Source of the DNA: Gyromitra esculenta
Lineage: Eukaryota > Ascomycota > Pezizomycetes > Pezizales > Discinaceae
Assembly: GCA_038503075.1 (NCBI GenBank)
Contig: JBCAML010000021.1
Location: forward strand, 868,001-932,000
Reading direction: 5' to 3'
Length of the DNA: 64,000 bases
The notes below the pieces were generated by a model. The model saw only the letters and a list, made by a program, of their open reading frames with translations. It was not told where the DNA came from and did not search any database. Below are positions 24,764 through 48,297 of the stretch, piece by piece (the stretch's first letter is position 1; every line of letters starts with the position of its first letter). Made by a program: the position numbers and the translations under genes.

Positions 24764-26444
24764 TGTAAGACCACTACTTCTTACCACACAGCAAATCTCC
24801 AAGAAGCTTTAGATAACAATCTAGACACTGTAACCTGCCCAGTTGCTGTAAGACCGGTACTTCTTACCGCACAGGAAATCTCCAAGAAGCTTTAGATAAC
24901 AATCTAGACGCTATAACCTGCCCGGTTGCTATCCGCAACACAATACACAGGCGCAAGTCCTAACTGCTTCTTATGAACCGCTAAAAGATAACCGTAGGGT
25001 TCAAAGTAAGGATCGAGCAAAGTTCCGTGAAGAACTTCCAATAGTAAGGTTTTTAATAACTAATGCTGAAGGGCTAAGGCCTTGCTAAGCGAGATAAAAG
25101 TAATTCACAAGTAAAAGAGTAATTTGCACGGAAATGATTTTGCTAGAAACAATATAATATTGATAAGGCTGGTTCTTCATCGCTAATGATCAAGAAGAAG
25201 ACCCTTCTCAATGGTAGAACATTGGACTACTTATAGTAGTCAATCATCGAATACAAAGGCTATGTAATAACATGAACTAACATGAAGAAATCTCATAGAC
25301 CTTGAACACTTTCCTTCGCTCCTACCCCTCTCATTATTGTATGGTGTGATTGTCAGAATTAACCGGCGACGCAACGTATAAGCGAATCGGGGAAGTGTCG
25401 ATCGAAAGAGTCGGCCATTGATGACACAAGGAAACCAAACATCCAATCCGAATCTTATTAATAATCAACCAAGATTAATAATAACCGACATGGTCGGGGA
25501 TTGAACGCTAGTCCATATGTGTGCATCATAAGCGAACTCAAGTCGTAACCAACTAAGCTACCAATAGGTATAACAGTTGCTATCCGCAACACAATACACA
25601 GGCGCAAGTCCTAACTGCTTCTTATGAACCACCAAAAGATAACGGTAGGGTTCAAGGTAGAGATCGAGCAAAATTCCATGAGAACTTCCAATAGTAAGGT
25701 TTTAATAACTAACGCTTAAGAGGCAAGGCCTTGCTAAGCGAGATAAAAGTAATTCACAAGTAAAAGAGTAAAATGCACGGAAGTAATTTTGCTAGAAACA
25801 ATATAATATTGATAAGGCTCATTCTTCGTCGCTGATGATCCGACTCAGGGTTTACATCCACTGCGAGAGTATTTATAATGCCTCCTCTCTACTATGTTTG
25901 GGTATAGTGTGGTGTAGAGGCACTATCTAGTATGATAACATGAAACCACTTCGCCTTATCTCCATACTCGATACCCCATTGAGTTTTCTGGCTCCGATCC
26001 GCGATTCTCTGAGCAGTATGCATGTCGGTAACACGTGAGTTACGTATTTGTCTTCATTGCGTTCGTCTCTTCGAGACAATCATTTTGCCTATCCGAATTG
26101 TCACGTAGCATTGCTTTCCCTTATCTTTGTCAGTCTGTAACTCCGCCAGTTTTGGTCCGATTCGCAATTCGTTTGAACCACAGCGAAGCCAGACACTTCC
26201 CCTACATACCATCCGGGTCCCATTCCGCCGGACGGTTTTGCTTGACGGCCTAGGGGTTACTTTTGCCCTCGGGGACAGGTCTTTTCTGGTGCTGTCCCCT
26301 CTTCTCCAAATACTATACCTACTGGAAGGATTGGAGGCAGGGTAACAGGCACCAGTCCCGATCCGGAAGGTGCTAAAGTAGGGTAACTCCAAAAATAGGG
26401 TAACTCCAGGGCCAGGAACTCCTTCAAAAGGTACAGGTATAACA
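24764..26444 (+). mobile_element. LTR-X, long variant, with nested 729-bp LTR-X
   Basis: Starts TGTAAGACC and ends GGTATAACA at 26444. It is split by the copy at 24847-25575. Its first half matches the 729-bp LTR-X, but from about 25845 it has a different block also found in the copy at 29984-30932. A gag-like frame follows on the plus strand, so this is probably a 5' LTR, which explains why the outer flanks (CAGAT, GAAGA) differ. Confidence 0.75.
24847..25575 (+). mobile_element. Solo LTR-X, 729 bp, TSD GTTGC
   Basis: TGTAAGACC...GGTATAACA, flanked by GTTGC (24842-24846 and 25576-25580). Inserted in another LTR-X. Minus-strand reading near the right end gives TAGCTTAGTTGG and GTTCAATCC, Pol III A-box and B-box like. 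Confidence 0.9.
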
Positions 26445-27786: not shown

Positions 27787-28515
27787 TGTTATATCTATTG
27801 GTAGCTTAGTTGGTTACGACATGAGTTTGCTTACGATGCACATATATATACTAGCGTTCAATCCCCAACCATGTAGGTTATTATTAATCTTGGTTGATGA
27901 TTAATAAGATTCGGATAGGATGTTTGGTTTCCTTGTATCATCAATGGCTGACTCTTTCGATCGACACTTCCCCGATTTGCTTATACGTTGCGTCGCCGGT
28001 TAATTGTGACAATCACGCCATACAATAATGAGAAGGGTAGGAGCAAAGGAAAGCGTTTTCAGGGTCTTTGGGATTTTGTTATGTTCGTTCATGTTATTAC
28101 ATAGCCTTTGTATTCGACACTTGACTACTATAAGTAGTCCAGTGTTCAGCCATTGGGAAGGGTCTTCTTCCTGATCATTCGCAACGAAGAATGAGCCTTA
28201 TTAATATTATATTGTTTCTAGCAAAATCACTTCCATGCAATTTACTCTATTACTTGTGAATTACTTTTATCTTGCTTCGCAAGGCCTTGGCCCTTCAGTG
28301 TTAGTTATTAAACCTTACTATTGGAAGTTCTTCATGGAACCTTGCTCGATCCCTACCATGAACCCTACTGTTATCTTTTGGTGGTTCATAAGAAGCAGTT
28401 AGGACTTGCGCCTGTGTATTGTGTTGCGGATAGCAACCGGGCAGGTTATAGTGTCTAGATTGTTATCTAAAGCTTCTTGGAGATTTCCTGTGCGGTAAGA
28501 GGTACCGGTCTTACA
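27787..28515 (-). mobile_element. LTR-X, 729 bp, at the left inversion breakpoint
   Basis: Reads TGTTATATC...GGTCTTACA on the plus strand, so reverse. Left flank CATAG, right flank GCCTC: they do not match each other, but each matches, as reverse complement and with one base difference, a flank of the copy at 47350-48078. The two copies share almost all variants (for example GGTACCGG and ACTCTATTAC) and are about 98-99% identical by eye. Confidence 0.9.
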
Positions 28516-29128
28516 GCCTCTACATCTTGCTCATATGGTATCATGAATGCCACAATTGGCGAATTATCTTTATTAATCTATGTACAAAAAGCTCTGTATA
28601 TACACATTAAAATATGCCACTCCTGGCAACAGCGAAAGCTCCTGTTGCTCCTGGGGGTGGAGGAATCTCATGCTTCTGGCGAGGGCGGAGGAAGCTGCTG
28701 CTGGCAGAGGTGCACGAGACTCCTGCTGCTGGCGGAGGCAAAGAAAGCTCCTGCTGCTGGCAGGGGAGGATGAACCTGTTACTGACGGATCCTGCTGATG
28801 CTGGTGGAGGTGGAGGCCTAGGAAGCTCCTGCTGCTGGCGGGGGCAGAGAAGGTGCTGCCCCTGCTTCTGGTAGGGGGAAGTTTCACTTGCTGCTGTTGG
28901 GCGTTGATGTTGCTGTTTGAGAAGTGTTGAAGATGAAGAGTTTTCATAACAAACAGAATAGGCCTGGTAACTATAAGTTGGTAGGGCTAGGGTTCATGGC
29001 CCACCAAGACCCTCCTGGGACCATGCCCATTGCCTCAGGGACTCCAGAGAGGTCAGGTCTTCCCATGGGACACTTGGGGTCCCAAGGACATTGGTGAATG
29101 TCCCTGGGACCAATATATTTTGCTGATG
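28516..29128 (+). mobile_element. TIR element Y, right part
   Basis: Starts inside the element at GCCTCTACATCTTGCTC and ends TTTTGCTGATG. The missing left part is at 48079-48297. Contains many GCTGCTGG-type repeats; the frames at 28477-28947 are shadows of these. Confidence 0.75.
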
Positions 29129-33501: not shown

Positions 33502-35340
33502 TTGGTTCCTTTTTCTTTACCTTTGTCTGCGTTTTCCATTTCAGAGTTTTCAGTGTTGGATATGTGCATGGAGGATCAACTAGATGGGGAACACTTTGTT
33601 ATTTTATGTAGCATTTCCAATAGCAATAAAATTATCAAAACCCATGCACTATTGGACACTGGAGCCTCAGGATTAACTTTCATCGACAAAGAATTTGCGA
33701 GTCACCATTCCTTGCCTCTCTCCCCCCTAAAAACCCATAGACAACTAGAACTAATCGATGGTCGCCCTATTGCCTCAGGAGCCATCATTCACATCGCCAA
33801 TATCAACCTGTCTATTCAACAGCATCAAGAACAAGCCCCCTGCTTTGTGACCCAGCTTGTTCACTACCTCCTTGTATTAGGAATCCCGTGGATGAATCAT
33901 GATGATGTCCACCTTCATTTCTCCGATAAACGCATTGAGTTTAATTCTAAACTCTGCACCACCCACTGTACCCACAACTCCCCCGTTGTATCAACCCCCT
34001 CAATTCCTACTCCTCCTAGATTGAACCTGTCCTTCATTGGTCTCACGGTTGAGTTCCTCGCTAAGCCCTTCAGTATCCCTGAAGGTGAGCAGTGCTGCTG
34101 AAGCGAGGTAACAACATGTTCAAAGTGTGCGGCGTTTCTACAAGTTTTACGAGGGGTCTATCTCAAGGCGAGATACGTGTGGCGAAGTAAACAGCGACAG
34201 TGAGGGTTCTGAGGTAGAACCGAGATAGTATTCCAATGATTACAGAAGAAGGTAAGTGAGAATGTTGCTGAAGGAAAGAAGAAGAAGACAAAGACCAACG
34301 AAATCCACCACTTAAATACCCCGCTTTTCCATGCCACAATCAATTCCCGACAACAACAAAAACACCAAGATATTATAACAATAACCGAAATCCGTCGTAA
34401 CCATCAAACAAAAGCCTAACCCAACACCTGGTTTCCATCCATGAAACTTGGTGCCGCTAGTGTTAGAACTCTCACCAGAAAACGTACCTCGCAGGCCTAC
34501 ACCATGTCTATCTACGAAATTAATAAAATCCTACAAGAGAAGACCACTAAGGAAGAATGGAAAGCGAGAATTCCCGTTGAATATCACTATTTCTTGAATA
34601 TGTTTAGCAAGAAGAAGGCCCAAGGTTCACCACCCAGCCGATCCTATGACCATAAAATACAACTGCAGGAAGGAAAAGATGCCCCCTTTGGACCCCTTTA
34701 TGGAATGTCTAGAGGAGTTAATCGTCCTAAAGAGGTATATTGAAGATTACTTGGAAAAAGGATTTATCCGTGCTAGTTCCTGGCCCGCCAGATCACCTGT
34801 CCTTTTTGTCAAAAAGGCTGACAGTTCCCTTCAACAATGTGTTGGCTATCAAGGCCTAAACGCCATCACTGTCAAAGACCACTACATCTCCCCTCTCATT
34901 CGAGAGACCCTTGATCGGTTAGCCAAGGCACAATGGTATACTAAGTTGGACCTCCGCAACGGTTATAACCAAGTTCAGATTGTGGAAGAGGACAAATGGA
35001 AAACTGCATTCCGCACCCGCTATGGGCTTTATGAATACCAAGTCATGTCCTTTGGCCTCACAAATGCCCCTGGAACCTTCCAACGCTTTGTCAATGACTG
35101 TCTCACTAGGTATCTAGATATCTTTTGTGCCGCTTATCTTGAGGATATACTTATCTACAGCAATACCTTCGCCAAACATCAAATTCACGTTAGAAAGATC
35201 CTCCAAACGCTCAAGGATAACAACATTCTACACAAACCAGAGAAATGCGAGTTTGAAGTACAAACAACTAAGTGCCTAGGTCTAATCTTCACCCCCAATG
35301 GTATTAAAATGGACAAGGAAAAACTAGCAGTCGTCTTGGG
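33502..35340 (+). pseudogene. Gypsy pol, copy C, truncated in RT
   Basis: Protease HALLDTGASGLTF at about 33650; then, after a solo LTR, reverse transcriptase with LRNGYNQVQI, and FCAAYLEDILIYSN (the YLDD Asp is replaced by Glu). The sequence ends at KMDKEKLAVV where GC-rich MITE-like DNA begins; RNase H and integrase are missing. The frame shifts near 34720. Inactive. Confidence 0.85.
34041..34446 (-). mobile_element. Solo LTR, Gypsy family A, inside pol copy C
   Basis: TCTCACGG...ATGAAA. The flanks are ATTGG and CTTGG, one mismatch apart. Removing it restores the coding order FIGAAS seen in the intact pol. Confidence 0.85.
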
Positions 35341-35575
35341 GCAGGGGTGGGGCGGGGCGGGGCAATAATATTCACTCACAATTCGCCCCGAAGGTGCCAT
35401 GTTCTCAAATATGGCTGTGCTCCAACGGTGCCCCAACAGCGCCCTGTCCTCTGATATTGTGGTTCCCCTTTGAGGCTCCGTTCAAATGGGGCCCCATCCT
35501 TAGTAATACTAACATAGGGTAGCTTCACCACTGCCCAGAGTATGTATTAACATTAGCTCAGTCTAGGTGCGCTCT
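35341..35575. repeat. GC-rich MITE fragment and spacer
   Basis: From 35334 the sequence GTCTTGGGGCAGGGGTGGGG resembles the terminal repeat of the MITE at 50040-50297. No matching right end is seen. No gene. Confidence 0.45.
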
Positions 35576-36051
35576 TAAATGGCGTATGTATGCCTTCTAG
35601 CTGGTGCCACCATCTTCGCTTTGGCACTTGAGGTGGTGTATGAATAGAGAATTATTTTCAAAATATTGATCCTTATCATTATAGTATCCATCTAAGCCCC
35701 ATAATAAGCCTCTAATCCCTCTAGCCCATCGTATCATCCTAACACAAAATGCCAAAATGCCAAAAACGCCAACATCAACCACATATAATCAATATCTAGA
35801 CCAATAAGAAAACCCAATAGAAAGACACAATAGGAAACAAAGACCAAAGAACCAAATAGGGAATAAAGCAAGGGAATCGGATCCAATAGAAAATATAAGA
35901 GGTAATCTAGGAAGTAATAAAGTAAGCAAGCACTAAGAAGTCAAGAAAAGGGATAGAAGCGACCAATAGGAAGAATCAAAGCAAAAATTAGGAATATAGT
36001 AGTTTTGGCGCATGCTGTGTATGATATGGCGTATGTATTGCCATATTCCCT

Positions 36052-36692
36052 CTAAATCCCCTCAGATCTTTTCCTCTCCCAAGTATCGAGGAGTGCCATA
36101 TCCTTCGTCTGAATCGTTTGGTGTTTGGCGTGGAAGGCGGCGTCCTGCAACACTGCAGAAGGTTAGTAGGTAGGTATGTATTAGGGTCAATGATTGATGA
36201 AACTTACTACTAAATTTGACTGTTAGATGCTCCTCCGCAACATATTGCAGCGCTTCTACAACTGCGGCTTCCAACCCCAGATGCTCCCCCACAAACTCGT
36301 CAAAAATCTCGCGAACCACTCGGGCAAATGGGGCATGGGGAATGAGCAGATCTCCGTTGTTTTGATACTTGTGGATTTCAAGCAGGGCACGTTGCCCTGG
36401 CTTATGGTGGCGTGGGGCTTTGGGGATAGCCCCCTGGGCGCCTGTTCTTGGCATCTGACGGGGCTTCTTGGTCTTGGCAGGATGGAGGTTGGAGGGGCCA
36501 GCGCAGCCTTTGTCATTGTCATTGTCACTGTTGGAGCTGGAGCTGGAGCAGGAGGAGGAGGAGGAGTCGGGCTCTTCAACAGGTGGGTTGACAACGGGGG
36601 GTCGGCAACGTGGGAGTTGGCAACGGGAGAGTTGGGACGGCGGCGGCATTGGCAGCATCTATCCGTTTCTGAACATTCTTTGTGCAAGCCAT
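36052..36692 (-). CDS. Histone H3-like (H3/CENP-A fold) protein, 2 exons
   Basis: Exon 1 reaches 36208, intron 36153-36207 (55 bp, GTAAGT...CTGCAG, with a CTAAC branch site), exon 2 36152-36052. The fold aligns from the alphaN helix onward: KPGQRALLEIHKYQ, LLIPHAPFARVVREI, EAAVVEALQY, and in exon 2 LQDAAFHAK then TIQTKDMALL, with the H3 positions P-G, A-L, E-I, Y-Q, L-L-I, P-F, V-R-E-I, A-L-Q, H-A-K and K-D kept. Loop 1 has one residue more than H3. The N-tail is long, Ser/Asp-rich and not basic. From ATG 36692 the first residues ACTKNVQKR echo the H3 tail ARTKQTARK; that frame is one base out because of a six-G run at 36596-36601, so either a slip occurred or the start is ATG 36658 (183 aa). 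A TATATAAGG box lies at about 36826-36834 with an inverted CCAAT beside it. A nucleosome role is inferred only. Confidence 0.8.
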
Positions 36693-36825
36693 AGTAGTGG
36701 TTTTGGTAAGGTAGTAATAAGGCGTATGTAAAGCAGTAGCTATAGAGGTAAGGCAACAAGGCAGGGCAGCGGGGAAGGTTGGTTAGCAGATGGAGAAGAG
36801 AGAAGGGGATGAGGGATATGCCCTC

Positions 36826-36834
36826 CTTATATAG
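36826..36834 (-). promoter_or_regulatory. TATA box and CCAAT of the H3-like gene
   Basis: Minus strand reads ATTGGCTATATAAGG about 140 bp upstream of ATG 36692. This suggests a working Pol II promoter. It shares a 700-bp intergenic space with the divergent acidic-protein gene. Confidence 0.5.
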
Positions 36835-37279
36835 CCAATTATGGACCCTCTAGAAGCTTCCTCTATTTCTTTGAAGCCTTGATACATCATAGGATTTTTC
36901 TTTGAAGGTCTGAGCACGAAGCCTCCAGTATATACTAGATTGTCATATTATCATTGTCTTGCTGCGCACGGGCTTGATTGCAAGGCTTGATTGCAGGCTT
37001 TTCGGCATATCAACGTCATTTATTGATATTGCTACTCATGGGCCTGATCGCGAGCTTTCCAGTGGGTCCAGGACGTCATATATTTACTGCTTGTTTCTAA
37101 TATTAGCCTTTGATTAAATAGAATGAAGTTGAATGATATCTTATGACCAAGGAAGATCTTGGCAAGTCATATTCCGTGAAACTGTGAAGACAAAGGGCTG
37201 AAGGATTACCTACATAATCTTTGACTCGGCAGCTAGCTCAAGAAACCTCCATATTGCTACAAAAGCGCCCAAAGATGTG

Positions 37280-37287
37280 TATAAATA
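37280..37287 (+). promoter_or_regulatory. TATA box of the acidic-protein gene
   Basis: GTGTATAAATAGG about 130 bp before the first in-frame ATG at 37412. It is a strong match to the TATA consensus and points away from the H3-like gene. Confidence 0.5.
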
Positions 37288-37411
37288 GGAGGCATATTCC
37301 CTTCTAGGTTAGAGCTATTTACCACCAAAACCTACCACTGCAAGCACATACTAATAGTAACTTATTACCACTCGTGTAAGCTGCGTTCTACTCCCCTATC
37401 AATACATAGAT

Positions 37412-38208
37412 ATGCTTACTATTGCTGGAGAAATCAGAATGCCTCACGCTCCAAAGTGAACCTTCCAAGTCCTTCCTGCAGGTGCCACCAGCAGGTCAAC
37501 AAATCCCAAAACAGTTGCCCAAAATGAACGCCGCCAAAGACTAGACCCCCTGCATTCTGAATACAAACGAGCTAGGGCTAATAGAGGTAATGGTATATCC
37601 TCAAAGATCAGAAGGCTGAAGAAAGCGGCAGCTTATACCAACACACCTGACGACGATGAGCGTAAATCCATGGAGCAAAGAATCAGGGTTGCCGAGGAAG
37701 CTGTATACCAAGCAAAGAGGGCGGTAATTGCTCAGATATTTGCAGAAAGGGAGGCTGCTCCCATTGCTCCCGCTCCGACTGCAGTTGTGGGCACCAAGCT
37801 GCTCACTAAACTGACTGCAGAATTGAGCATTGCCAGACCTGAGGATGTGGAGATGACTGAGGCTGAGGCTGAGGGGGATGAGAGTGAGGATGAGAGCCAG
37901 GATGAGAGCCAGGACGAGTTGTTTGATGGAATCCTGTTTGATTTTGCTGCTTGCAAGGAGGATGTGGATACGGATGACGCTAGTGTAGATTCTGACGAGG
38001 AGATTGATGCTAAGGGGGAGATTGATATTAGGGGTGGAGAAGAGGAGATATCTGGTGTAGAGCTGCAGCCGAGAATTATGGAGAGGAATGTAGGGTTTTG
38101 AAGAGGTTGGAGGAGTTGGCGAAGGCAGATGAAGCTAAGCGGGAGAAGGTAAGGGAGGCGAGGAGGGGGGAAAGAAGAGGAAAGGGGAAAGGCATGTATT
38201 CTGATTAG
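37412..38208 (+). pseudogene. Acidic, coiled-coil protein gene next to the H3-like gene
   Basis: Coding from ATG 37412; an in-frame TGA at 37457-37459 (possible former CGA) lies 15 codons in, so an intact product might start at ATG 37670. Regions in order: basic N-terminal part (QNERRQRLDPLHSEYKRARA), a helical part (MEQRIRVAEEAVYQAKRAVI), a long acidic part with MTEAEAEGDESEDESQDESQ, and, in the next frame after about 38080, a Lys/Arg/Glu helix LKRLEELAKADEAKREK ending GKGMYSD. The acidic-plus-basic layout is typical of histone chaperones, but no family motif was recognised. It is divergently transcribed from the H3-like gene. Confidence 0.5.
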
Positions 38209-38235
38209 AGTTTAGATTAGAAAGGGTTAAACCCC

Positions 38236-38307
38236 CCAAAATGGCGTATGTATGCGAGGCCTGCGCATTTTGGGGGCAGACCTCACATACATACACCATT
38301 TTTGATT
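38236..38307. repeat. Inverted repeat with GGCGTATGTATG / CATACATACACC arms
   Basis: Arms AAAATGGCGTATGTATGCGA and CACATACATACACCATTTTT flank a short GC-rich loop. It sits just after the acidic-protein gene and next to the chromovirus insertion site. It may be a terminator hairpin or an internal copy of the element ends. Confidence 0.6.
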
Positions 38308-38312
38308 TAATG

Positions 38313-38729
38313 TTTCACGGATGGAACCGGGTAATAGGTTGAGATGAGGTTGTTTGAAGTAAGCGAAGGATTGTTTGGGTATAATGGCTTTGTTGTTCGG
38401 TTATGTTTCGGCTGTTGACGGGTTGTTGATTGTACTACGGGAAAGCGGGGTATTTAAGCGGAGGATTTTGGTCGTTGTTGTTCTTTTCTCTTCTTTCCTT
38501 AAGCAACGTTCTCGTTTACCTTCTTCTGTATTTGTCGGAATACTATCTCGGTTCTACCTCAGAACCTTCGCTGTCGCTGTCCACTTCGCTGCACTTATCT
38601 CGCCTTGAGATAGACCCCTCGTAGAACTTGTAGAAACGTTGCACTCTTTGAACGCGTTGATACCTCATTAAGTAGCACTGCTCACCTTCAGGGATACTGA
38701 AGGGCTTAACGAGGAACCCAACCGTGAGA
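38313..38729 (+). mobile_element. 5' LTR of a complete chromovirus
   Basis: 417 bp, TTTCACGG...CCGTGAGA. Left TSD TAATG at 38308-38312. TATTTAAG at 38451-38458, then CTTAAGCAACGTT at 38498-38510, probably close to the transcript start. A perfect hairpin CCTTCAG-GGATA-CTGAAGG is at 38685-38703. It differs from the 3' LTR (406 bp) by about 8% plus a 14-bp indel, so the insertion is not recent. Confidence 0.95.
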
Positions 38730-38731
38730 TT

Positions 38732-38740
38732 ACGTTGCTT
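38732..38740 (+). promoter_or_regulatory. Probable self-priming site for reverse transcription
   Basis: ACGTTGCTT starts two bases after the LTR and is exactly complementary to AAGCAACGT at 38501-38509, about 50 bp below the TATA box. No tRNA-type TGG start is present. Tf1/sushi elements, also chromoviruses, are known to prime from the folded 5' end of their own RNA; the same pairing is recognisable in other copies here. Confidence 0.6.
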
Positions 38741-38794
38741 CCTTTATCTACACCTTCTACCACCCAAACCTATACCCAACCTTCTAACGCCACC

Positions 38795-40087
38795 ATGGAA
38801 GGAGCCGCCGTCGCCGCGAAACGATTCCCCACCAGGGAAGCCTTCGCCCAAGCCTACAGAGAGGACCCCGCAGAACTCTATAACGAGCTCAGGGACCTAA
38901 ATCAAGCCCTGGAAGACCAAATCGATGTCCTCCAGGAAAGCGAGCGAGAAAACGAGGTCAAACTCAACACCGCTCGCATTCAAACCGATAATGCCCTCCG
39001 CCACGCTGCCGAACAGGATCAACGGGTCACAGAGACCGCTAATCTAATCGCCCGATTACGGCAGGAACGAAATGAAGCCAGAGCTACCATCCAAGCACCC
39101 CCCGCTCCACCTAATCTAAGCGCTACCCCACCTCCACCAACAAACTCCCACCGTTCAGAACGAATGCCGGACCCGGAGAAATTTGACGGATCTCGAACCA
39201 AACTCCCCGGCTTCATCCTCCAACTACGCTCCAAGTTGACCGTCAACCGAGACCGCTTTGCAAATGAAACCACGATGATCCTCTATACCATTAATCGATT
39301 AGAGGGAGCAGCTCTAGAACAAGTCCGTCATACAGTCCTCCCTTCCGGTCTCACCACTTGGACTAGTGCGGAACAACTCATTGCCGCCCTGGAAACCGCT
39401 TTCGGGGATCCAGATCCAACGGGTACCGCTCGACGGGAACTTCATCAACTCCGCCAGGGAAAACGTGATTTCTCAGCATATCTGGCCGATTTCCAAAGAA
39501 TCATGGGGCAGCTCAACTTTGATGAGAACTCGAAAATGGATGCCCTAGAACACGGCATGTCTGAAGAGCTAAAAGAAGCCATGGTGTTCGCACCCATCGC
39601 CCCTGCCACCCTTCCGGAAATGATCCTCACCCTCACCCGCCTAGATAACCGGATCCGAGCTCGCAAGGCAGAGAAACGAGGAAACACCCGTGATAACATG
39701 GGTCAATTCAATGCTCCTGCAGCCTTTACTCCCGCTTCTTCCTTCACTCCAGGAGGACTAGCTCCGATGGACCTATCTTTTGGCCGTACTAGCAATATCT
39801 CTCGCCCCCTGCAGGATCAACGGTATACCATGGTTAATGGAAGAAGGAAGCTCTCGGAGGAAGAAAAACAGTGGCGCCGCTCCACTGGAAAATGCATGTT
39901 CTGTGCCGCCCCGGATCACTCCTATGCGAATTGCCCCTCCGCTCCCAAAAAACCTACACTTAGGGGAGCCCTCACCGCCCCACCTGCTAACCGTACGCCC
40001 CCGGCCTCTTCCCTACCGCCGCCACCTCTCCCGCCTCAATTTTTTGCCTTAGAGTCTGCAAGCGCCTCAAGCGAGGCTTTAAACTAG
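38795..40087 (+). CDS. Chromovirus Gag, intact, 430 aa
   Basis: Start chosen at GCCACCATGG (38795), a good initiation context; the open frame runs upstream to 38735 only with a TTG. Capsid-like region with KRFPTREAFAQAYREDPAEL, a predicted coiled coil, SERMPDPEKFDGSRTKLPGF, then a zinc knuckle CMFCAAPDHSYANC near residue 370 for RNA binding. It overlaps pol by 97 bp in the -1 frame. Gag packages the element RNA into virus-like particles. No stop or shift is seen. Confidence 0.9.
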   Translation: MEGAAVAAKRFPTREAFAQAYREDPAELYNELRDLNQALEDQIDVLQESERENEVKLNTARIQTDNALRHAAEQDQRVTETANLIARLRQERNEARATIQAPPAPPNLSATPPPPTNSHRSERMPDPEKFDGSRTKLPGFILQLRSKLTVNRDRFANETTMILYTINRLEGAALEQVRHTVLPSGLTTWTSAEQLIAALETAFGDPDPTGTARRELHQLRQGKRDFSAYLADFQRIMGQLNFDENSKMDALEHGMSEELKEAMVFAPIAPATLPEMILTLTRLDNRIRARKAEKRGNTRDNMGQFNAPAAFTPASSFTPGGLAPMDLSFGRTSNISRPLQDQRYTMVNGRRKLSEEEKQWRRSTGKCMFCAAPDHSYANCPSAPKKPTLRGALTAPPANRTPPASSLPPPPLPPQFFALESASASSEALN

Positions 40088-43000
40088 TCCAACCAAGGTC
40101 GATCAGTGACCCTACCTTGGTTTCAAATTTCTTACCATTATCTGCATTTTCTATTTCGGGGTTTTCGGTTTCCGGTATAAGCGTGGAGGATCAGTTGGAT
40201 GGGGAACACTTTGTAGTAGCATGCAAAATTTCCCATAGCAATAAAATTATAAACACACACGCTTTACTAGACACCGGAGCCTCAGGATTTGCATTTATTG
40301 ACCAGAAATTCGCGAGTCACCATTCTCTTCCCCTTACCCCCCTAAGAACACACCGACAACTTGAAGTTATCGATGGACGCCCCGTTGCCTCCGGAGATAT
40401 CACTCACATTGCCAAACTCGACCTATCCATTGAAAACCACCAAGAACAAGCGCCCTGTTTCGTAACTCAATTAGGTCACTACCCCTTGGTCCTGGGAATA
40501 CCATGGATGAAACATCATGATGTACATCTACAGTTTGCCGATAAACGCATTGAGTTTAACTCTAAACTCTGCACCACCCACTGCGCCCCTCACTCCCCTG
40601 TCGTCGTCTCACCAGCAATCACCGCCCCCCCCAGACTAAACATGTCCTTTATTGGCGCTGCTAGCTTTAGGACTCTTACTAGGAAACGTACCCACCAAGC
40701 CTACGCCATGTCCCTCTATGAGATTAACAAACTCATAGACAATACAACCACCAAGGAAGAATGGAAGTCTAGGATCCCCGTTGAGTACCATGACTTCCTA
40801 GATATGTTTGACAAAGCAAAAGCCCAAGGGCTACCCCCACGCCGCCCCTATGACCATAAAATACAACTAATGGAAGGGAAGGATGCACCGTTTGGACCAC
40901 TTTATGGGATGTCAAGAGAGGAACTCATTGTCCTTAAGAAGTACATCGAAGATAACCTGGAGAAAGGCTTTATTCGCGCTAGCTCCTCTCCCGCCGGCTC
41001 CCCTGTATTATTCGTGAAAAAAGCAGACGGCTCCCTACGGCTATGTGTTGACTATAGAGGCCTAAACGCCATTACAGTCAAGGATCGATACACTTCCCCT
41101 CTCATACGAGAAACTCTGGATCGATTAGCGAAAGCCCAGTGGTATACCAAGCTCGACCTCCGCGACGGATATCATCAAATTCGAATCGCCGAGGGAGAGG
41201 AATGGAAAACCGCTTTCCGAACCCGCTATGGTCTCTACGAATACCAGGTGATGCCCTTTGGACTGACCAACGCTCCCGGCACGTTCCAACGCTTCGTGAA
41301 CGACTGCCTCACTGAATACCTAGACATCTTTTGTACCGCATACCTAGACGATATTCTCATCTATAGTGATACCTTCGACGAACACCAAACTCATGTTCGA
41401 AAGGTCCTACAAACGCTAAAGAATAATAACATTCTCCTTAAACCCGAGAAATGTGAGTTTAACGTACAAACGACAAAATATCTAGGCCTAATCCTCACTC
41501 CCGACGGCATCAAGATGGACGAAGAGAAATTAAAAGCCGTCCGAGAATGGGGAACTCCAAAGAGTGTTAAAGATGTACAAGCGTTCTTAGGATTTGCTAA
41601 TTTTTACCGCCGATTTATCCTGGGATTCTCAAAACTCGCCTCACCTCTTACTGCCCTTACAAGAAAAGGCATCAACTTCGAATGGACCGTCGAAGCCGAG
41701 ATCGCCTTCGAAAATCTAAAATACGCGTTCACTACTGCCCCTATCCTCATCCACTTTGACCCTGATAAAAAAATCATTGTGGAAACCGACGCTTCAGACT
41801 TCGTATCAGGCGGAGTCCTATCTCAGTACGATGACGCAGGAATCCTTCATCCCGTAGCCTTCTTTTCAAAGAAGCACTCACCGGCAGAATGTAACTACGA
41901 AATCTACGATAAAGAGCTATTGGCCATCATCCGTGTTTTCGAGGAATGGCGCCCCGAGCTTGAAGGATCAAAGCACCCAATTGATGTGATTAGTGACCAT
42001 AAGAATCTTGAGTACTTCATGAGTACTAAGCAACTCAATCGACGTCAAGCTAGATGGGCCGAGTATTTGTCACGTTTTGATTTTGTAATCACATATCGAC
42101 CAGGAAGCCAAGGAGGAAAACCCGATGCACTCACTAGGAGATCGGGAGATCTCCCCAAGGAAGGGGATGAAAGACTGGCACACCAGAGTCAAGTGGTGTT
42201 AAAAAAGGAGAATATTGATCCTAAGCTAAGTTTGTTGTCGGCTTCTTTGTCAAATGAAGCCGCTGAATTGGACGCACTCCTAGAAAAACTCTTCCTAGAA
42301 GGATATATCGCTGATAAATTTCCCAAAAAAATACTTCTAGCACTGAAGAACAAGGAACGACAGTCAAAGGAAATCACCCTTAGCGAGTGTACTAATGAAA
42401 ACGACAAACTCTACTACAGGGGAAACCTTTATGTACCAGACTACGACCCCCTTCGCTTAGAAATTATTAAAAGACATCACGATACCCCCGCAGCAGGACA
42501 CCCAGGACGGGATAAAACCTTCGAACTTGTAAGTAGAAGGTTTTACTGGCCAAAGATGAGAGAAATAATTGGCCGTTACGTACGCAACTGCCATGTCTGT
42601 CAAAAGGCTAAGCCGATTACCCAACGCACGCAAGGTGTTCTCCGTCCTCTACCTATCCCTAATCGTCCATGGCAGGAAGTGTCTATGGATTTTGTTACAG
42701 GCCTTCCAGAATCCGATGGTTATGATGCAATTATGGTAGTAGTAGACCGCTTGTCAAAAATGCGCCACCTGATACCCTGCAATACCACGGTTAATTCCCG
42801 AGATGTGGCCGACTTATACCTCCAGCACGTCTGGAAACTTCACGGACTGCCTACACACGTTACGTCAGACCGGGGTACTCAATTCACGGCCCACTTCTGG
42901 AAAGAGCTCTGTCAACGCTTAGGAATTCAATCCCGAATGTCTACTGCATTTCATCCTGAAACCGATGGGCAAACAGAACGATTGAACGCAGTTATGGAGC

Positions 43001-43788
43001 AATACCTACGCTCCTATGTGTCCTATCAACAGGAAGACTGGAGCAAGTGGCTACCGATGGCTGAGTTCTCTGCTAATAACCAAGAGTCAGCTAGTACTAA
43101 AGCCTCTCCCTTCTTTGCGAATTACGGATATCATCCACGCTTCGATACCTCTATTGTTCCAATAAAGACTTCCCCCCAAAGCCTAGATGCGGCATCTTTT
43201 GCTCAGACCATGCAAAATTTGTATGACCATTTACGGACGCAAATAAGGACGGCACAGGATACCCAGGAAACCGCTACTAATAAGCACCGCATGCCAGCTC
43301 CTTCGTACCAAGTGAATGATCAAGTCTTCGTTTCCATGAAGAACATCAGGACAATACGTAACGCTCGAAAACTGGACTGGAAATGGATGGGACCCTATCC
43401 TGTTAAAAAGATAGTGTCTCCCTTTGCGTATGAGATTGACCTTCCTATGTCGGTTAAGTATCATCCGGTTTTTCACGTTTCTTTATTGAAACCCGCGGCC
43501 AACGATCCCCTTCCCGGACAAGTAATTCCTCCACCATCCCCGGTTATAGTTAACGATCAAGAAGAGTACTTTATCGAAAAAATCCTCGAGCAACGAATTC
43601 ACCACGGACGAAGACAGTACCTTATTGAATGGACTGGCTATGCCCATCCTACCTGGGAACCCGCAGAAGATCTTCAGGATACTGCCGCCCTCGAGATATT
43701 TCTAACTACGGTAACTACGACTAGCCCTAAGGTTCGCAGGAGCTCACGTTTAAAACGGGGGGCTACTTTCACGGATGGAACCGGGTAA
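39991..43788 (+). CDS. Chromovirus Pol (PR-RT-RH-IN-chromodomain), intact
   Basis: Open without a stop from 39991, in the -1 frame to gag. Domains in order: protease HALLDTGASGFAF, reverse transcriptase with TAYLDDILIYSD, RNase H with VETDASDFVSGG, integrase zinc part HHDTPAAGHPGRDK...CHVCQKAK, DDE core (FVTGLPESDGYDAIM, TSDRGTQFTAHFW, HPETDGQTERLNA), GPY/F-like WMGPYPVKKIV, and a C-terminal chromodomain EEYFIEKILEQR...YLIEWTGYAHPTWEP. The stop at 43786-43788 lies 20 bp inside the 3' LTR. A CAATTTTTTGC string at about 40037-40047 in the overlap is kept in copy B and may be the frameshift site. The chromodomain would guide integration to marked chromatin. Confidence 0.95.
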   Translation, partial: PYAPGLFPTAATSPASIFCLRVCKRLKRGFKLVQPRSISDPTLVSNFLPLSAFSISGFSVSGISVEDQLDGEHFVVACKISHSNKIINTHALLDTGASGFAFIDQKFASHHSLPLTPLRTHRQLEVIDGRPVASGDITHIAKLDLSIENHQEQAPCFVTQLGHYPLVLGIPWMKHHDVHLQFADKRIEFNSKLCTTHCAPHSPVVVSPAITAPPRLNMSFIGAASFRTLTRKRTHQAYAMSLYEINKLIDNTTTKEEWKSRIPVEYHDFLDMFDKAKAQGLPPRRPYDHKIQLMEGKDAPFGPLYGMSREELIVLKKYIEDNLEKGFIRASSSPAGSPVLFVKKADGSLRLCVDYRGLNAITVKDRYTSPLIRETLDRLAKAQWYTKLDLRDGYHQIRIAEGEEWKTAFRTRYGLYEYQVMPFGLTNAPGTFQRFVNDCLTEYLDIFCTAYLDDILIYSDTFDEHQTHVRKVLQTLKNNNILLKPEKCEFNVQTTKYLGLILTPDGIKMDEEKLKAVREWGTPKSVKDVQAFLGFANFYRRFILGFSKLASPLTALTRKGINFEWTVEAEIAFENLKYAFTTAPILIHFDPDKKIIVETDASDFVSGGVLSQYDDAGILHPVAFFSKKHSPAECNYEIYDKELLAIIRVFEEWRPELEGSKHPIDVISDHKNLEYFMSTKQLNRRQARWAEYLSRFDFVITYRPGSQGGKPDALTRRSGDLPKEGDERLAHQSQVVLKKENIDPKLSLLSASLSNEAAELDALLEKLFLEGYIADKFPKKILLALKNKERQSKEITLSECTNENDKLYYRGNLYVPDYDPLRLEIIKRHHDTPAAGHPGRDKTFELVSRRFYWPKMREIIGRYVRNCHVCQKAKPITQRTQGVLRPLPIPNRPWQEVSMDFVTGLPESDGYDAIMVVVDRLSKMRHLIPCNTTVNSRDVADLYLQHVWKLHGLPTHVTSDRGTQFTAHFWKELCQRLGIQSRMSTAFHPETDGQTERLNAVMEQYLRSYVSYQQEDWSKWLPMAEFSANNQESASTKASPFFANYGYHPRFDTSIVPIKTSPQSLDAASFAQTMQNLYDHLRTQIRTAQDTQETATNKHRMPAPSYQVNDQVFVSMKNIRTIRNARKLDWKWMGPYPVKKIVSPFAYEIDLPMSVKYHPVFHVSLLKPAANDPLPGQVIPPPSPVIVNDQEEYFIEKILEQRIHHGRRQYLIEWTGYAHPTWEPAEDLQDTAALEIFLTTVTTTSPKVRRSSRLKRGATFTDGTG
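43752..43766 (+). promoter_or_regulatory. Polypurine tract of the chromovirus
   Basis: AAAACGGGGGGCTAC directly before the 3' LTR start TTTCACGG. The same GGGGGGCTAC-TTTCA join is seen in copy B at 9602-9612 (minus strand). It primes plus-strand DNA synthesis. Confidence 0.75.
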
Positions 43789-44172
43789 TCGGTTAAGACA
43801 AGGTTGGTTGGAGTAAGCGAAGGATTGTTTGGATATAATGGCTTTGTTGTTCGGTTAGGTTTTGGTTGTTGATTGTACTACGGGAAAGCGGGGTATTTAA
43901 GCGGAGGATTTCGGTCGTTGTTGTTCTTTTCTCTTCTTTCCTTAAGCAACGTTCTCGTTTACCTTCTCCTGTACTTGTTGAAATACTATTTCGATTCTAC
44001 CTCAGAATCCTCGCTGTCGCTGTCCACCTCGCTGCACTTATCTCGCCTGGAGATAGACCCTTCGTAGAACTTGTAGAAACGTTGCACTCTTTGAACGCGT
44101 TGATACCTCATTAAGTAGCACTGCTCACCTTCAGGGATACTGAAGGGCTTAACGAGGAACCCAACCGTGAGA
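43767..44172 (+). mobile_element. 3' LTR of the complete chromovirus
   Basis: 406 bp, TTTCACGG...CCGTGAGA, right TSD TAATG at 44173-44177. Contains the end of pol and all LTR signals. Confidence 0.95.
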
Positions 44173-44339
44173 TAATGTGATTCATATGCCATAACAGATG
44201 CGCTGGGCACATACGCCGGATACATGCGCCATATTAGGAGCTCTTGGAGAGTTTTGTAGATAGAGAATAAAGACTGCAGTTTATTGAAATCAAATACAAA
44301 TCAAGAGAAAGAATACGCTGCTTCGCACCACTTAATTAG

Positions 44340-44968
44340 CTAGTATAGTTCTATCTCCAACCTAACCCTTCCTGCAATAACCTCCAATCCCTTCATTGTA
44401 CACCTCTGCTCAAGCTTTTGCACTGTAAAGCTATGCTAGACTCCTGCCTTTAATGCCTGCACCAGCTTTCAACCTACAGCTTTTGAGAATGACATCCTTC
44501 CACAATGAAACTCTTTGCGGAGTAGAGCTATTCCAACAGTTTTGCCTTCCTCCGATTGACCATAATAGATATCTAACATATAGCGAGCACCTAGCTTGGG
44601 CTTTTTGTGAGGTAGGTTGTAGTCAAAATGCTGGTGATCTAATAGCTAGTCAATCTCAATATCTCTACAAAAAAGGCCTATAAGCATACAGATAATGCAT
44701 AACCTTTTACCCTCAAATGGACGCTCTTCTAGGGTGAAATCCTCCACCTCCCAATCTGAAGACTGTGTTGCTGCTGCTGCAGCAGGAGAATCTAACACAA
44801 CCAATTCGGGTTCTGGAGGACGCTGGAGGAAGGGGGAGGTGGATGGAACGGCCCCAATATGGCTGGCGCATGCTGAGGGGAGGTTGAAGTAAAAGAAATA
44901 GGGGGAGTAGAAGGGAAAAACTCAGTAGCAGAAGCTGGGTAAAATTCAGGGTCGAACATTGCAGGCAT
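44340..44968 (-). CDS. Unknown intron-containing gene of the H3-like element
   Basis: Minus strand from ATG 44968 (MPAMFDPEFYPASATEFF, then a Pro/Ser-rich part). Two introns fit GT...AG: 44639-44710 and 44423-44473. Spliced, it reads PELVVLDSPAAAAATQSSDW, EERPFEG, then DHQHFDYNLPHKKPKLGARY, LRKEFHCGRMSFSKAV and QKLEQRCTMKGLEVIAGRVR, ending LEIELY. One base shift or an extra tiny intron is needed near 44800-44870 to join the start to the rest. I recognise no family. Because it lies with the H3-like gene between ACATACGCC repeats, it may be an element gene. Confidence 0.5.
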
Positions 44969-44977
44969 GCTGGGTGT

Positions 44978-45568
44978 AGAAGAAAGAGAGTAGGAAAGAA
45001 CTGGGATTATATAAAGCAGTGGGAGTGAGTGGCCTATTATACCCAATTTGTAAGGAACTGACTGAACATATTCCAGTCAATACATACACCAGTCAACACA
45101 TACGCCGATTTAGGCCTTATTTGCTTGAACTACGCTAGATGCATATATTCACAAAATATCAGTCGATCTGGAGGTCAGTTATTATCCTTCAGCTGGTTGC
45201 GAGAAGCTCTCGAGGGGAGCATTAGCAGTTGAGCAAAGCTTTAATCGCCGAGTACTACCTTTTTCGGCACGCTGTATATTCTCATGGTTCAGTGGGTCGG
45301 CTCTTCCCCACTTAAATTGGTAGCCCACAGACCACTCCAATATTCAACTGACACAGTCTCACGGAGCTTACAGATCCAGCAGCTCACATATCAGAGAGAT
45401 CATAGCTTCGACCACTCAAAGCCTCGTCAACTCTAGGCTTACATTCAATCTAATCGAGTTACCGAAAGGACAGTACATACGCCAGTGGGTACATACGCCA
45501 AAAAACAAGTGTGTAGATATGGAGGTTTTTATATATTCCCTAGATCTCTCCTATCTAGCAGCTAGGAG
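44978..45568. other. No gene; ACATACGCC repeats
   Basis: Upstream DNA of the preceding gene, with ACATACACC/ACATACGCC at about 45074-45095 and two copies at 45475-45505. Nothing coding. 45506-45568 lies between the candidate element end and the LINE. Confidence 0.4.
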
Positions 45569-47349
45569 CATCCTCTGTCCCTGCTACAACCTCTTCGATT
45601 GAAAGTTCACCACCACCTTTTGCATTGCAACAGTGTTACACACAGCCAAAGGTTTTTAGCACTTCAGCTTCATTTTATTACCCCGCTCCTAAAAACAAGT
45701 TAGATCCTTGTTTTAACAACACCTCTCCGATTGCATGTCTTCAGAAGACACAGCAAGAATTTTTACACCTCTCTTCCCCTCCTTCCAAAGAGGTTAAGCT
45801 TCTACCACTCCTGCTTCCTCCACAACAGCCATGGTGGAATCCAGAATCCCCTCCCCATCGAAACGGCAGAGAGCTGACACCTCTCCTCCATCGCCACCTG
45901 TCTTTTCCCACCCTACACACTGGATTAATGCAATCCATAACAAGGACAGCAGGATCACAGGAGCCCCCATGACCCTCAAGACAGTGAGCCAGTGCCTTAC
46001 AAAGGCTAACGAACAGAATCTCGTACATGTTACCTCCCTTCTTAATATGATCCAGCATCTACAAAGCAAGGTCAACCTAATCAAAGAGGCCGCAAAGAGT
46101 CCAGCACCTCTCCTCGACATGTTTCCAGAGTCTCCAACTTTGAGCAAACAAGAGTGCATGCACCTCCTCACAGTAGGAAAAGCAGTGCCCCCAGCAACAC
46201 CTGCACCTTTTAGTGCTCCTCCTCTTACTGCACCTGCTGCTGCTATTCCAGCTCCTCCTATCCCAAAGCCTTTGCAATGGGCTCAGGTGGCCGCCAGCAA
46301 ACCCAAGAGAAAAGCCCAACCAGCAAAGGCCAAACAGGCTGCGAACGCACCTGCCCCTAAGACTTCATCTTCTCCTCCTACCATCACTCCCACCATGCTT
46401 GCACGCCGTTAGATTGTCAAACACGACAGCACTCCCCTTTCTCAAGGGTCAATCATGGAACTCAGAGATAAACTTAACTCTGCCATTGGTTCCATCACCA
46501 TCCAATCTGTGGCAATAGACACACATTCTCAGAATGTGTCGTTGATAGTCATGAATAACATGTTTGCCAACACCCACTACAGAAAAGTTGGTCAATTTCT
46601 CCACCTCATCCCAGGTGCTCATTCCCTCCACATAGACGAACCACTGCACCAACTTGTAGTTCATGGTATCCCAACCTCACTGGAGCCTTCAGCTATTCAG
46701 CAAGAGCTCTGCAACTTTAACCTCAGCCTCACTATGGACACTCCCCCAAGATGGCTCACACTATCTGAGAAATGAAGAAGAAAGACAGTTTCTTCAATTG
46801 TCATCACCCTCTCTGGCCCCAAAGCTAATGAAATTGCCAATCACACTCACTGTTTTGCCTTCTCTACCACTGTCCGAGCTGAACGCAAGCTTCGTTTTGG
46901 ACCCTCCATCCAGTACTCCCAATGCCACAAATTTGGACACCATACCAACAAATGCGCAACCAACCATGCTGTCGCAGATGTGTTGGACTCCATCCTGCTG
47001 CAGCTCATACCTGTTCCACTCTCTACAATCTCTTCTTCCCTCTCAAAGTCTTCAAATAGATTGGCCTCAGGTTTGAAGCCAATTTGTCACCATTTCATCA
47101 CTTCAAACAACACTTTTTGAAAGCCAACAAAACATTCCTCTTCCTCTGTTGCTTGTCCCCAGCTGGGACAGGTCTCACCTCATACAATAACAGATGATTG
47201 GCCTAGGCTGTCATTCTCCCCACAATGCTCTTTGGCTCCGCTGTCTTCACACCCAACAATTCCTCTCTCACCCTCCTCCAATGCCTTTGGGACAAAGTAC
47301 TCCACTGGGTCACCAACTGCATTACATCAACCAATTCACTCACCCAATG
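45569..47349 (+). pseudogene. LINE 5' half with internal deletion (ORF1 joined to ORF2 C-terminus)
   Basis: Starts CATCCTCTGTCCC. ORF1 from 45735 on with GAPMTLKTVSQCLTKANEQN, PKPLQWAQVAASKPKRKAQP, MELRDKLNSAIGSI and a zinc knuckle region near 46920-46950. ORF1 has stops near 45800, 46412 and 46775. At about 47055-47075 it jumps straight to the ORF2 C-terminal region (the same region as 63200-63310), so most of ORF2 including RT is missing. It ends at NSLTQC at the LTR-X; the rest of this LINE is at 26733-27786. Confidence 0.8.
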
Positions 47350-48078
47350 TGTAAGACCGGTACCTCTTACCGCACAGGAAATCTCCAAGAAGCTTTAGAT
47401 AACAATCTAGACACTATAACCTGCCCAGTTGCTATCCGCAACACAATACACAGGCGCAAGTCCTAACTGCTTCTTATGAACCACCAAAAGATAACAGTAG
47501 GGTTCATGGTAGGGATCGAGCAAGGTTCCATGAAGAACTTCCAATAGTAAGGTTTAATAACTAACACTGAAGGGCCAAGGCCTTGCTAAGCAAGATAAAA
47601 GTAATTCACAAGTAATAGAGTAAATTGCATGGAAGTGATTTTGCTAGAAACAATATAATATTAATAAGGCTCAGTCTTCGTTGCGAATGATCAGGAAGAA
47701 GACCCTTCTCAATGGCTGAACACTGGACTACTTATAGTAGTCAAGTGTCGAATACAAAGGCTATGTAATAACATGAACGAACATAACAAAATCCCAAAGA
47801 CCCTGAAAACGCTTTCCTTTGCTCCTACCCTTCTCATTATTGTATGGCGTGATTGTCACAATTAACCGGCGACGCAACGTATAAGCAAATCGGGGAAGTG
47901 TCGATCGAAAGAGTCAGCCATTGATGATACAAGGAAACCAAACATCCAATCTGAATCTTATTAATCATCAACCAAGATTAATAATAACCTACATGGTTGG
48001 GGATTGAACGCTAGTATATATATGTGCATTGTAAGCGAACTCAAGTCGTAACCAACTAAGTTACCAATAGGTATAACA
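47350..48078 (+). mobile_element. LTR-X, 729 bp, at the right inversion breakpoint
   Basis: TGTAAGACC...GGTATAACA. Left flank CAATG, right flank GAAGC; no match between them, but both match flanks of 27787-28515 with one difference each. Confidence 0.9.
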
Positions 48079-48297
48079 GAAGCTTTCAGGGTAGGTATGG
48101 TAACTATGACTAGTCGCTTAGCAGTACCAGAGCTTTCCCTGGGACCTAAAGCATGTGCTCCCAGGAGTCCCATGGGACATATAAGTGGGTTCCAGGGGTA
48201 TCAAAGAATCCCACAGGACCGGGTGGTGTCCTTACAGTCCCGTGTGTCCCAGGAGCGTACAGGGATACCCTGGTATCATTTTTAACTTTTCCTGATG
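48079..48297 (-). mobile_element. TIR element Y, left part
   Basis: Reads, reversed, from CATCAGGAAAAGTTAAAAATG to TACCTACCCTGAAAGC. Its continuation GCCTCTACATC is at 28516. Ends with CTGATG at 48297. Confidence 0.75.

Follow-up and report, generated by a model that had tools for sequence, protein, structure and literature searches.

A histone H3-like gene in the window

The stretch analysed here (the window) comprises 64,000 nucleotides of the Gyromitra esculenta genome (C21:868001-932000; the genome has 47.1 Mb in 23 contigs, after which copies are named C6, C7 and so on), and contains a histone H3-like gene in what we read, with a probability of about 0.85 and from sequence comparison, as a truncated, decayed copy of a cut-and-paste DNA transposon of the hAT superfamily that carries this gene. 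The gene and the remnant of its original N-terminus are located as follows:

36052..36658, minus strand: histone H3-like gene (exon 1, 36658-36208; intron, 36207-36153; exon 2, 36152-36052)
36678..36692, minus strand: counterpart of the start codon and of the MARTK-like N-terminus (MACTKNVQKR...), in the window copy in a different frame from the core

Splicing over 36207-36153, with the intron signals GTAAGT ... CTAAC ... CAG, gives a protein of 183 residues; the intron of the window copy also reads open, so that the unspliced open reading frame (ORF) has 198 residues. The spliced protein scored well over the cut-off of the Pfam Histone profile PF00125 (68.5 bits, cut-off 26.4; E 8.2e-19), and its solved relatives are led by H3 chains (E 1.5e-15), the best 60 of 173 PDB matches being H3 or CenH3 chains with H3 first. 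With the Histone domain over the cut-off and H3 as the best match, the predicted protein is a member of the histone H3 family. The second profile proposed in a preliminary description of this DNA, CENP-T_C (PF15511), stayed below its cut-off (13.5 bits against 28.1; E 0.077), and we rejected this identity. A database search with the H3-like protein returned no match at 1e-10 and a single eukaryote protein with a Histone domain at E 8e-7 (85 candidates).

The splice signals and the Pfam and PDB matches bear out the two-exon minus-strand gene, the intron and the H3 fold of the preliminary description, which had placed the start of the gene at ATG 36692. That start does not hold for the window copy, in which the histone core is read in a frame that begins at ATG 36658 and to which ATG 36692 does not belong. 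The homologous ATG is in frame in the copies on C6 (MACIKNVQKR) and C7 (MARTKNVQKR), and these N-termini resemble the MARTKQTARK start of canonical H3. The tail is acidic and rich in Ser and Asp, and neither ARK nor ARKS occurs in any of the five genomic copies of the gene in the histone-frame reading (the tails of C18 and C19 are degraded or incomplete).

Copies, ends and transposase

A protein search of the genome with the H3-like protein gave 15 matches, 4 of which lie in host histone genes and 11 of which are exon pieces in five loci, namely C21 (the window), C6, C7, C18 and C19, on five contigs with homologous flanking DNA. The copies carry different lesions. C21 retains an open core, with a tail frame out of step with that of C6; a TAG interrupts exon 1 in both C6 and C7, of which C6 also lacks its stop codon and C7 has GT..AA at the intron; the 5' part of C18 is degraded; and C19 is split by an inserted long terminal repeat (LTR) with the target duplication GCGCC. 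At the intron, GT..AG is retained in four of the five copies including the window (the exception is C7), and the introns of C6, C7 and C18 contain stops in the histone frame, the C19 row being out of frame there. Since the lesions differ between copies, the ancestral element probably still had an undamaged H3-like gene at the time of its movement, as judged from these reading frames.

The element in the window begins at a terminal repeat and is interrupted by foreign insertions:

35325..35342, plus strand: left terminal repeat TAGCAGTCGTCTTGGGGC, sharp start of homology
35325..38312, no strand assigned: left part of the element, with homology at 73-91% identity on C6, C7, C18 and C19
38313..44172, plus strand: inserted Gypsy LTR retrotransposon, foreign to the element, with the 5-bp duplication TAATG at 38308-38312 and 44173-44177
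44178..45568, no strand assigned: further part of the element to the right of the Gypsy, with two matches in the genome (window and C6), contiguous with the acidic-gene part in C6
45569..47344, plus strand: sequence like a long interspersed nuclear element (LINE), foreign to the element, beginning at a site that has a poly-A end in C7 and C11 and is empty in C6

The left terminal repeat TAGCAGTCGTCTTGGGGC is exact at C6, C19 and C21 and has 1-2 mismatches at C7, C22, C3 and C15, giving seven matches at up to 2 mismatches in the genome versus two for the reversed-pattern control. In the six of these loci whose sequence was read (C15 was not), homology begins at the repeat and the flanks differ. 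The repeat adjoins four of the five H3-like copies (C6, C7, C19 and C21), and none was found within 2 mismatches at C18. The window has no detectable right end. The first 150-200 bp of the element (window 35325-35500 and homologues) contain variable G+C-rich repeats (GGTGCCCCGCTCAAATGG and similar), and right ends elsewhere are also G+C-rich. The element had been delimited from motif to motif at 35576-45505; we rejected these limits because homology and the left terminal repeat begin at 35325. The H3-like gene does lie in a repeated mobile element, and most of the interval (38313-44172) is the inserted Gypsy.

The transposase was traced through the other copies, as no transposase gene was found in the window copy. 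C6 runs from the acidic-protein gene (see below) via a further gene, gene C, into a gene starting MSSASSTKAESS, in which a zinc-finger-like CxxC...HxxxxxC stretch is visible by eye; in this N-terminal part of the transposase nothing scored over a Pfam cut-off. Homologues of the transposase start are present on C7 and C11, and C11 also has the hAT dimerisation domain PF05699, downstream on the same strand (C11:1230145-1230342). The C11 transposase stretch is 90% identical to C23, where PF05699 is matched at E 1.8e-10 and is followed by the right end. No DUF659 or hAT profile matched in two transposase fragments. A transposase with a C-terminal dimerisation domain, by which hAT elements are recognised, is accordingly predicted for the related copies (C11, C23) and not for the window copy. 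The right ends of C7, C22 and C23 finish in GTGAYRAACACTA; only the three matches with 1 mismatch that coincide with homology were used, as the pattern at up to 3 mismatches is useless as sole evidence (82 matches versus 84 in the control). An 8-bp target duplication, GGTTACCC, is found at both ends of C22, in a rearranged copy.

Put together, the five loci, the left end at four of them and the contiguity of the cargo with a hAT-type transposase gene in C6 uphold the earlier proposal of a mobile element that carries an H3-like gene; the best match is a histone and the gene is not single-copy, so that both outcomes named as contradicting this proposal are absent. The intact element would have the order left terminal repeat, H3-like gene (minus), acidic gene (plus), gene C (minus), transposase (plus) and right terminal repeat, and its transposase would combine a zinc-finger-like N-terminus with the hAT C-terminal dimerisation domain. 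C6 begins with the left end and the histone and, after inserted repeats, continues with the acidic gene, gene C and the start of the transposase. Summed over the overlapping copies, the element would be ~8.6 kb long.

Several observations weigh against this assignment. No copy is whole, and the plan is composed from C21, C6, C11 and C23; no right end is assigned to any H3-bearing copy, none of which has both ends, and in C6 inserted repeats of ~3.2 kb stand between the histone part and the acidic gene. None of the H3-like matches of the genome search falls in the transposase-bearing copies C11, C22, C23 and C6:774 kb, and most of the 26 PF05699 matches in the genome lie elsewhere. The C22 ends, at 674350 and 704632, are ~30 kb apart in opposite orientation, so a later inversion is needed there. 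The left TAGCAGTCGTCTTGGGG agrees with the complement of the right ends of C7, C22 and C23 at 11 of 17 positions, and at 10 of 17 within C22 (by eye). On the side of the protein, the residues through which canonical H3 touches DNA or its partners are in part changed (by eye), and nonsynonymous changes are statistically indistinguishable from the neutral expectation in all ten pairs of the five copies (lowest P 0.12). Purifying selection among the five H3-like copies was not seen. Because the nonsynonymous changes do not depart from the neutral expectation, the differences among copies fit decay after insertion, and such neutral decay would speak neither for nor against a past use of the histone.

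The decay bears no clear signature of repeat-induced point mutation (RIP) in two dinucleotide indices. TpA/ApT comes to 0.83 (left part of the element), 1.00 (right part) and 0.85 (whole window), and (CpA+TpG)/(ApC+GpT), at 1.58, 1.36 and 1.25, respectively, is not lowered, hence the absence of a clear signature.

In three copies (window 45569, C7 near 705770 and C11 near 1227190) the LINE appears to have a common insertion site, with a duplication of ~15 bp. On C7 and C11, the poly-A end at this site is followed by CCTAGCAGATAGAAGG. Either the element moved with the LINE inside, or the LINE prefers the site.

Comparison with host histones and published elements

The host has a canonical H3 gene at C13:1010020 and, named by reading of the sequence, CenH3-like genes at C9:1567777 and C13:1443488. 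There seem to be two CenH3-like genes, L035 (C9:1567777-1568218) and L036 (C13:1443488-1443847), besides one canonical H3; L035 has ~12 extra residues in its loop-1 region, unless these come from a piece of intron left in the reading. The cores of four H3-like copies (C18 was left out) are 38-48% identical to host H3 and the two CenH3-like proteins over 92-99 aligned residues, and 39-45% identical to host H3 alone, whereas the host proteins are 67-73% alike among themselves. The near-identical core and the ARKS tail around K9 and K27 that define a canonical H3 are therefore both missing from the element protein, given this core identity and the lack of ARK/ARKS. By eye, its intron lies at about H3 residue 106, near the host H3 intron at about residue 110 and at a different site.

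A loop 1 longer by two or more residues is a hallmark of CenH3 (CENP-A). Alignment to host H3 confirms the single additional loop-1 residue reported in the preliminary description; the loop is one residue longer than that of host H3 and shorter than those of both host CenH3-like proteins, and thus falls short of the hallmark. The element histone resembles CenH3 in its H3 fold and divergent tail, and differs in retaining MARTK (in C7), in a loop 1 just one residue over H3 and in residing in a host with CenH3-like genes of its own. The window copy aligns with a higher score to host H3 (156) than to the CenH3-like proteins (144 and 126), while the other three of the four compared copies score slightly higher with L035 than with host H3.

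The preliminary description had known of no such fungal transposon, which is wrong, since reports from 2013 (PMC3538342) and 2019 (PMC6710886) describe hAT elements that bear such genes. In the available part of the first report, Pyrenophora tritici-repentis has a 5.6-kb hAT element with a transposase, a central ORF of unknown function and an H3-like gene, as well as a 2.3-kb form, together in 26 copies (Manning et al. 2013, PMC3538342). Compared by description, it shares with the Gyromitra element the hAT dimerisation domain, the H3-like gene and an additional uncharacterised ORF, it has terminal inverted repeats (TIRs), to which the imperfectly matching ends in Gyromitra may correspond, and its histone, with insertions in the N-terminal tail, likewise matches neither H3 nor CenH3; it differs in its 26 very similar copies and known expressed sequence tags, as opposed to ~8.6 kb, two extra genes and five divergent, decayed copies in Gyromitra (PMC3538342). 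Six Mycosphaerellaceae, in the sections available of the second report, have hAT elements with intronless, RIP-damaged H3-like copies, the full length being 9.5-9.9 kb in P. fijiensis (Dhillon et al. 2019, PMC6710886). The elements of Pseudocercospora, Cercospora and Sphaerulina are similar in their hAT nature and inactivated H3-like sequences, and have TIRs and 8-bp duplications, to which the ends and the GGTTACCC of C22 may correspond here. As far as those sections describe them, the Mycosphaerellaceae elements are intronless and RIP-damaged, occur in hundreds of copies and have DUF659 without dimerisation or other domains; the Gyromitra element, in contrast, has an intron, five loci, no clear RIP and a dimerisation domain in related copies (PMC6710886). 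The histones of DNA viruses (review: PMC9145170) are also carried by selfish elements; the carrier here has hAT features instead.

Gyromitra apparently adds a further fungal lineage to the H3-carrying hAT elements. Its 5.8S-ITS region is that of an ascomycete and, on weak grounds, seems to belong neither to Pleosporales nor to Mycosphaerellaceae. New relative to the published cases are the intron away from those of host H3, the two further genes, the acidic tail with MARTK and without ARKS, and the motif array described below.

Cargo, motif array and possible role of the histone

Two further genes accompany the histone in the window:

37412..38101, plus strand: acidic-protein gene, with a basic N-terminal half and an Asp/Glu-rich C-terminal half (start by eye)
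44430..44968 (approximate), minus strand: gene C (MPAMFDPEF...), frame broken relative to C6 (limits by eye)

In the window the acidic gene has a TGA at 37457-37459 and is open from 37460. Its product matched no Pfam family and had no homologue at E 0.1 among 510 database candidates; gene C matched no Pfam family either. On C13, two pieces (L030: 768634-768842 and 769644-769807) are 70-73% like the acidic gene and lack a histone, perhaps representing a relative of this gene.

The inverted repeats noticed in the preliminary description are copies of the motif GGCGTATGTA, among them:

35581..35590, plus strand: motif
36028..36037, plus strand: motif, immediately 3' of the H3-like stop codon
36721..36730, plus strand: motif, upstream of the H3-like gene
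38243..38252, plus strand: motif
38238..38302, no strand assigned: near-palindrome with the motif in both orientations (arms 38238-38264 and 38276-38302)
45474..45499, minus strand: two exact copies, reversed, 16 bp apart

Counting both GGCGTATGTA and its complement with at most 1 mismatch, there are 11 sites in the 4383 bp of the element versus 0.11 expected from 300 Markov sequences, and 2 in the remaining 59617 bp. Genome-wide the pattern occurs 86 times versus 63 for the reversed pattern, so that only the local density is telling. The repeats are thus real and enriched; they are internal motifs and not the element ends they had been taken for, as the left end lies at 35325. Nor is the near-palindrome an end, a possibility we rejected since C6 continues through it. 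The sites are oriented forward in four of five cases in the left arm and backward in all six in the right arm, with the same trend in C6; in the right part of the related C23 the orientation is mixed (1 forward, 3 reverse). Lying beside the genes of the element, they are putative binding sites of its own transposase, and may also regulate these genes.

What the histone does, or did, can be read in several ways. Our preferred guess, a tentative one that may well be wrong, is that it was incorporated into nucleosomes of the element and let it escape silencing. While the element was active, the H3-like protein would pair with H4 and enter nucleosomes, favourably those of the element; with no ARKS, and hence no methylation sites around K9 and K27, it would be unable to bear silencing marks there, and the unsilenced element would stay expressed and mobile. 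The element may mark its own chromatin or block silencing, as had been suggested for this locus. We would extend the guess, with no less reserve, to the hAT elements with an H3-like gene in at least three groups of fungi: there the gene would be a working part rather than an accident of capture, and would provide the element with nucleosomes of its own, closed to silencing marks at K9 and K27, alongside an acidic partner protein and a regulatory motif in common.

An account with an appreciable chance of being right is that the gene is a passenger, a transduplicated host gene that was amplified without benefit to the element and is now decaying. The neutral pattern among copies agrees with this, as do the four broken copies and the doubtful start of the window copy, and it is the interpretation given for Pseudocercospora in the available part of that report (PMC6710886). 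An idle gene, on the other hand, should not reach 39-45% identity to host H3 and yet keep an open, spliced frame until the last moves; moreover, the gene has its own intron, by eye away from the host H3 intron sites, and the same association recurs in other fungal groups, as far as the two reports describe it (PMC3538342, PMC6710886). That the histone served the element would be favoured by its deep divergence despite a kept frame and by the recurrence of the association.

It is rather doubtful that the H3-like protein acted outside chromatin as a co-factor of transposition, giving shape to the ends of the transposon or to the transposase-DNA complex, helped by the acidic protein in a chaperone-like role. 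The acidic gene with its Asp/Glu-rich half does adjoin the histone gene, and the common motif lies beside several genes, but the acidic protein has no Pfam match and acidic stretches are common. Far less probable is self-marking or centromere drive, in which the histone would form CENP-A-like nucleosomes: the H3-like fold with an unusual tail and the slightly higher scores of three of four copies with L035 point that way, against which stand the preference of the window copy for H3 (156 versus 144 and 126), the short loop 1 and the MARTK start in C7. The centromere role raised in the preliminary description finds no support, because a canonical H3 and two CenH3-like genes are encoded elsewhere in the genome. 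A divergent host H3 variant with repeats nearby by chance is scarcely credible, having the histone fold itself in its favour and nothing beyond; against it stand the homologous flanks of the gene at five loci, each on a different contig, and the distinct H3 and CenH3-like genes of the host.

The two published cases were interpreted, in the parts of the reports available, as separate captures of a host gene. With a further case in which the histone is deeply diverged, bears an intron and has a tail without silencing sites, it becomes worth asking whether transposons recruit histones against silencing.

Elsewhere in the window, a repeat of ~730 bp occurs several times (24764-25840, 27789-28520 and 47349-48082) and is also found near the element copies on C6, C18 and C19. 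In a repeat-rich region at 58426-59898 (minus strand), reading frames resemble a SNF2-type helicase by eye.

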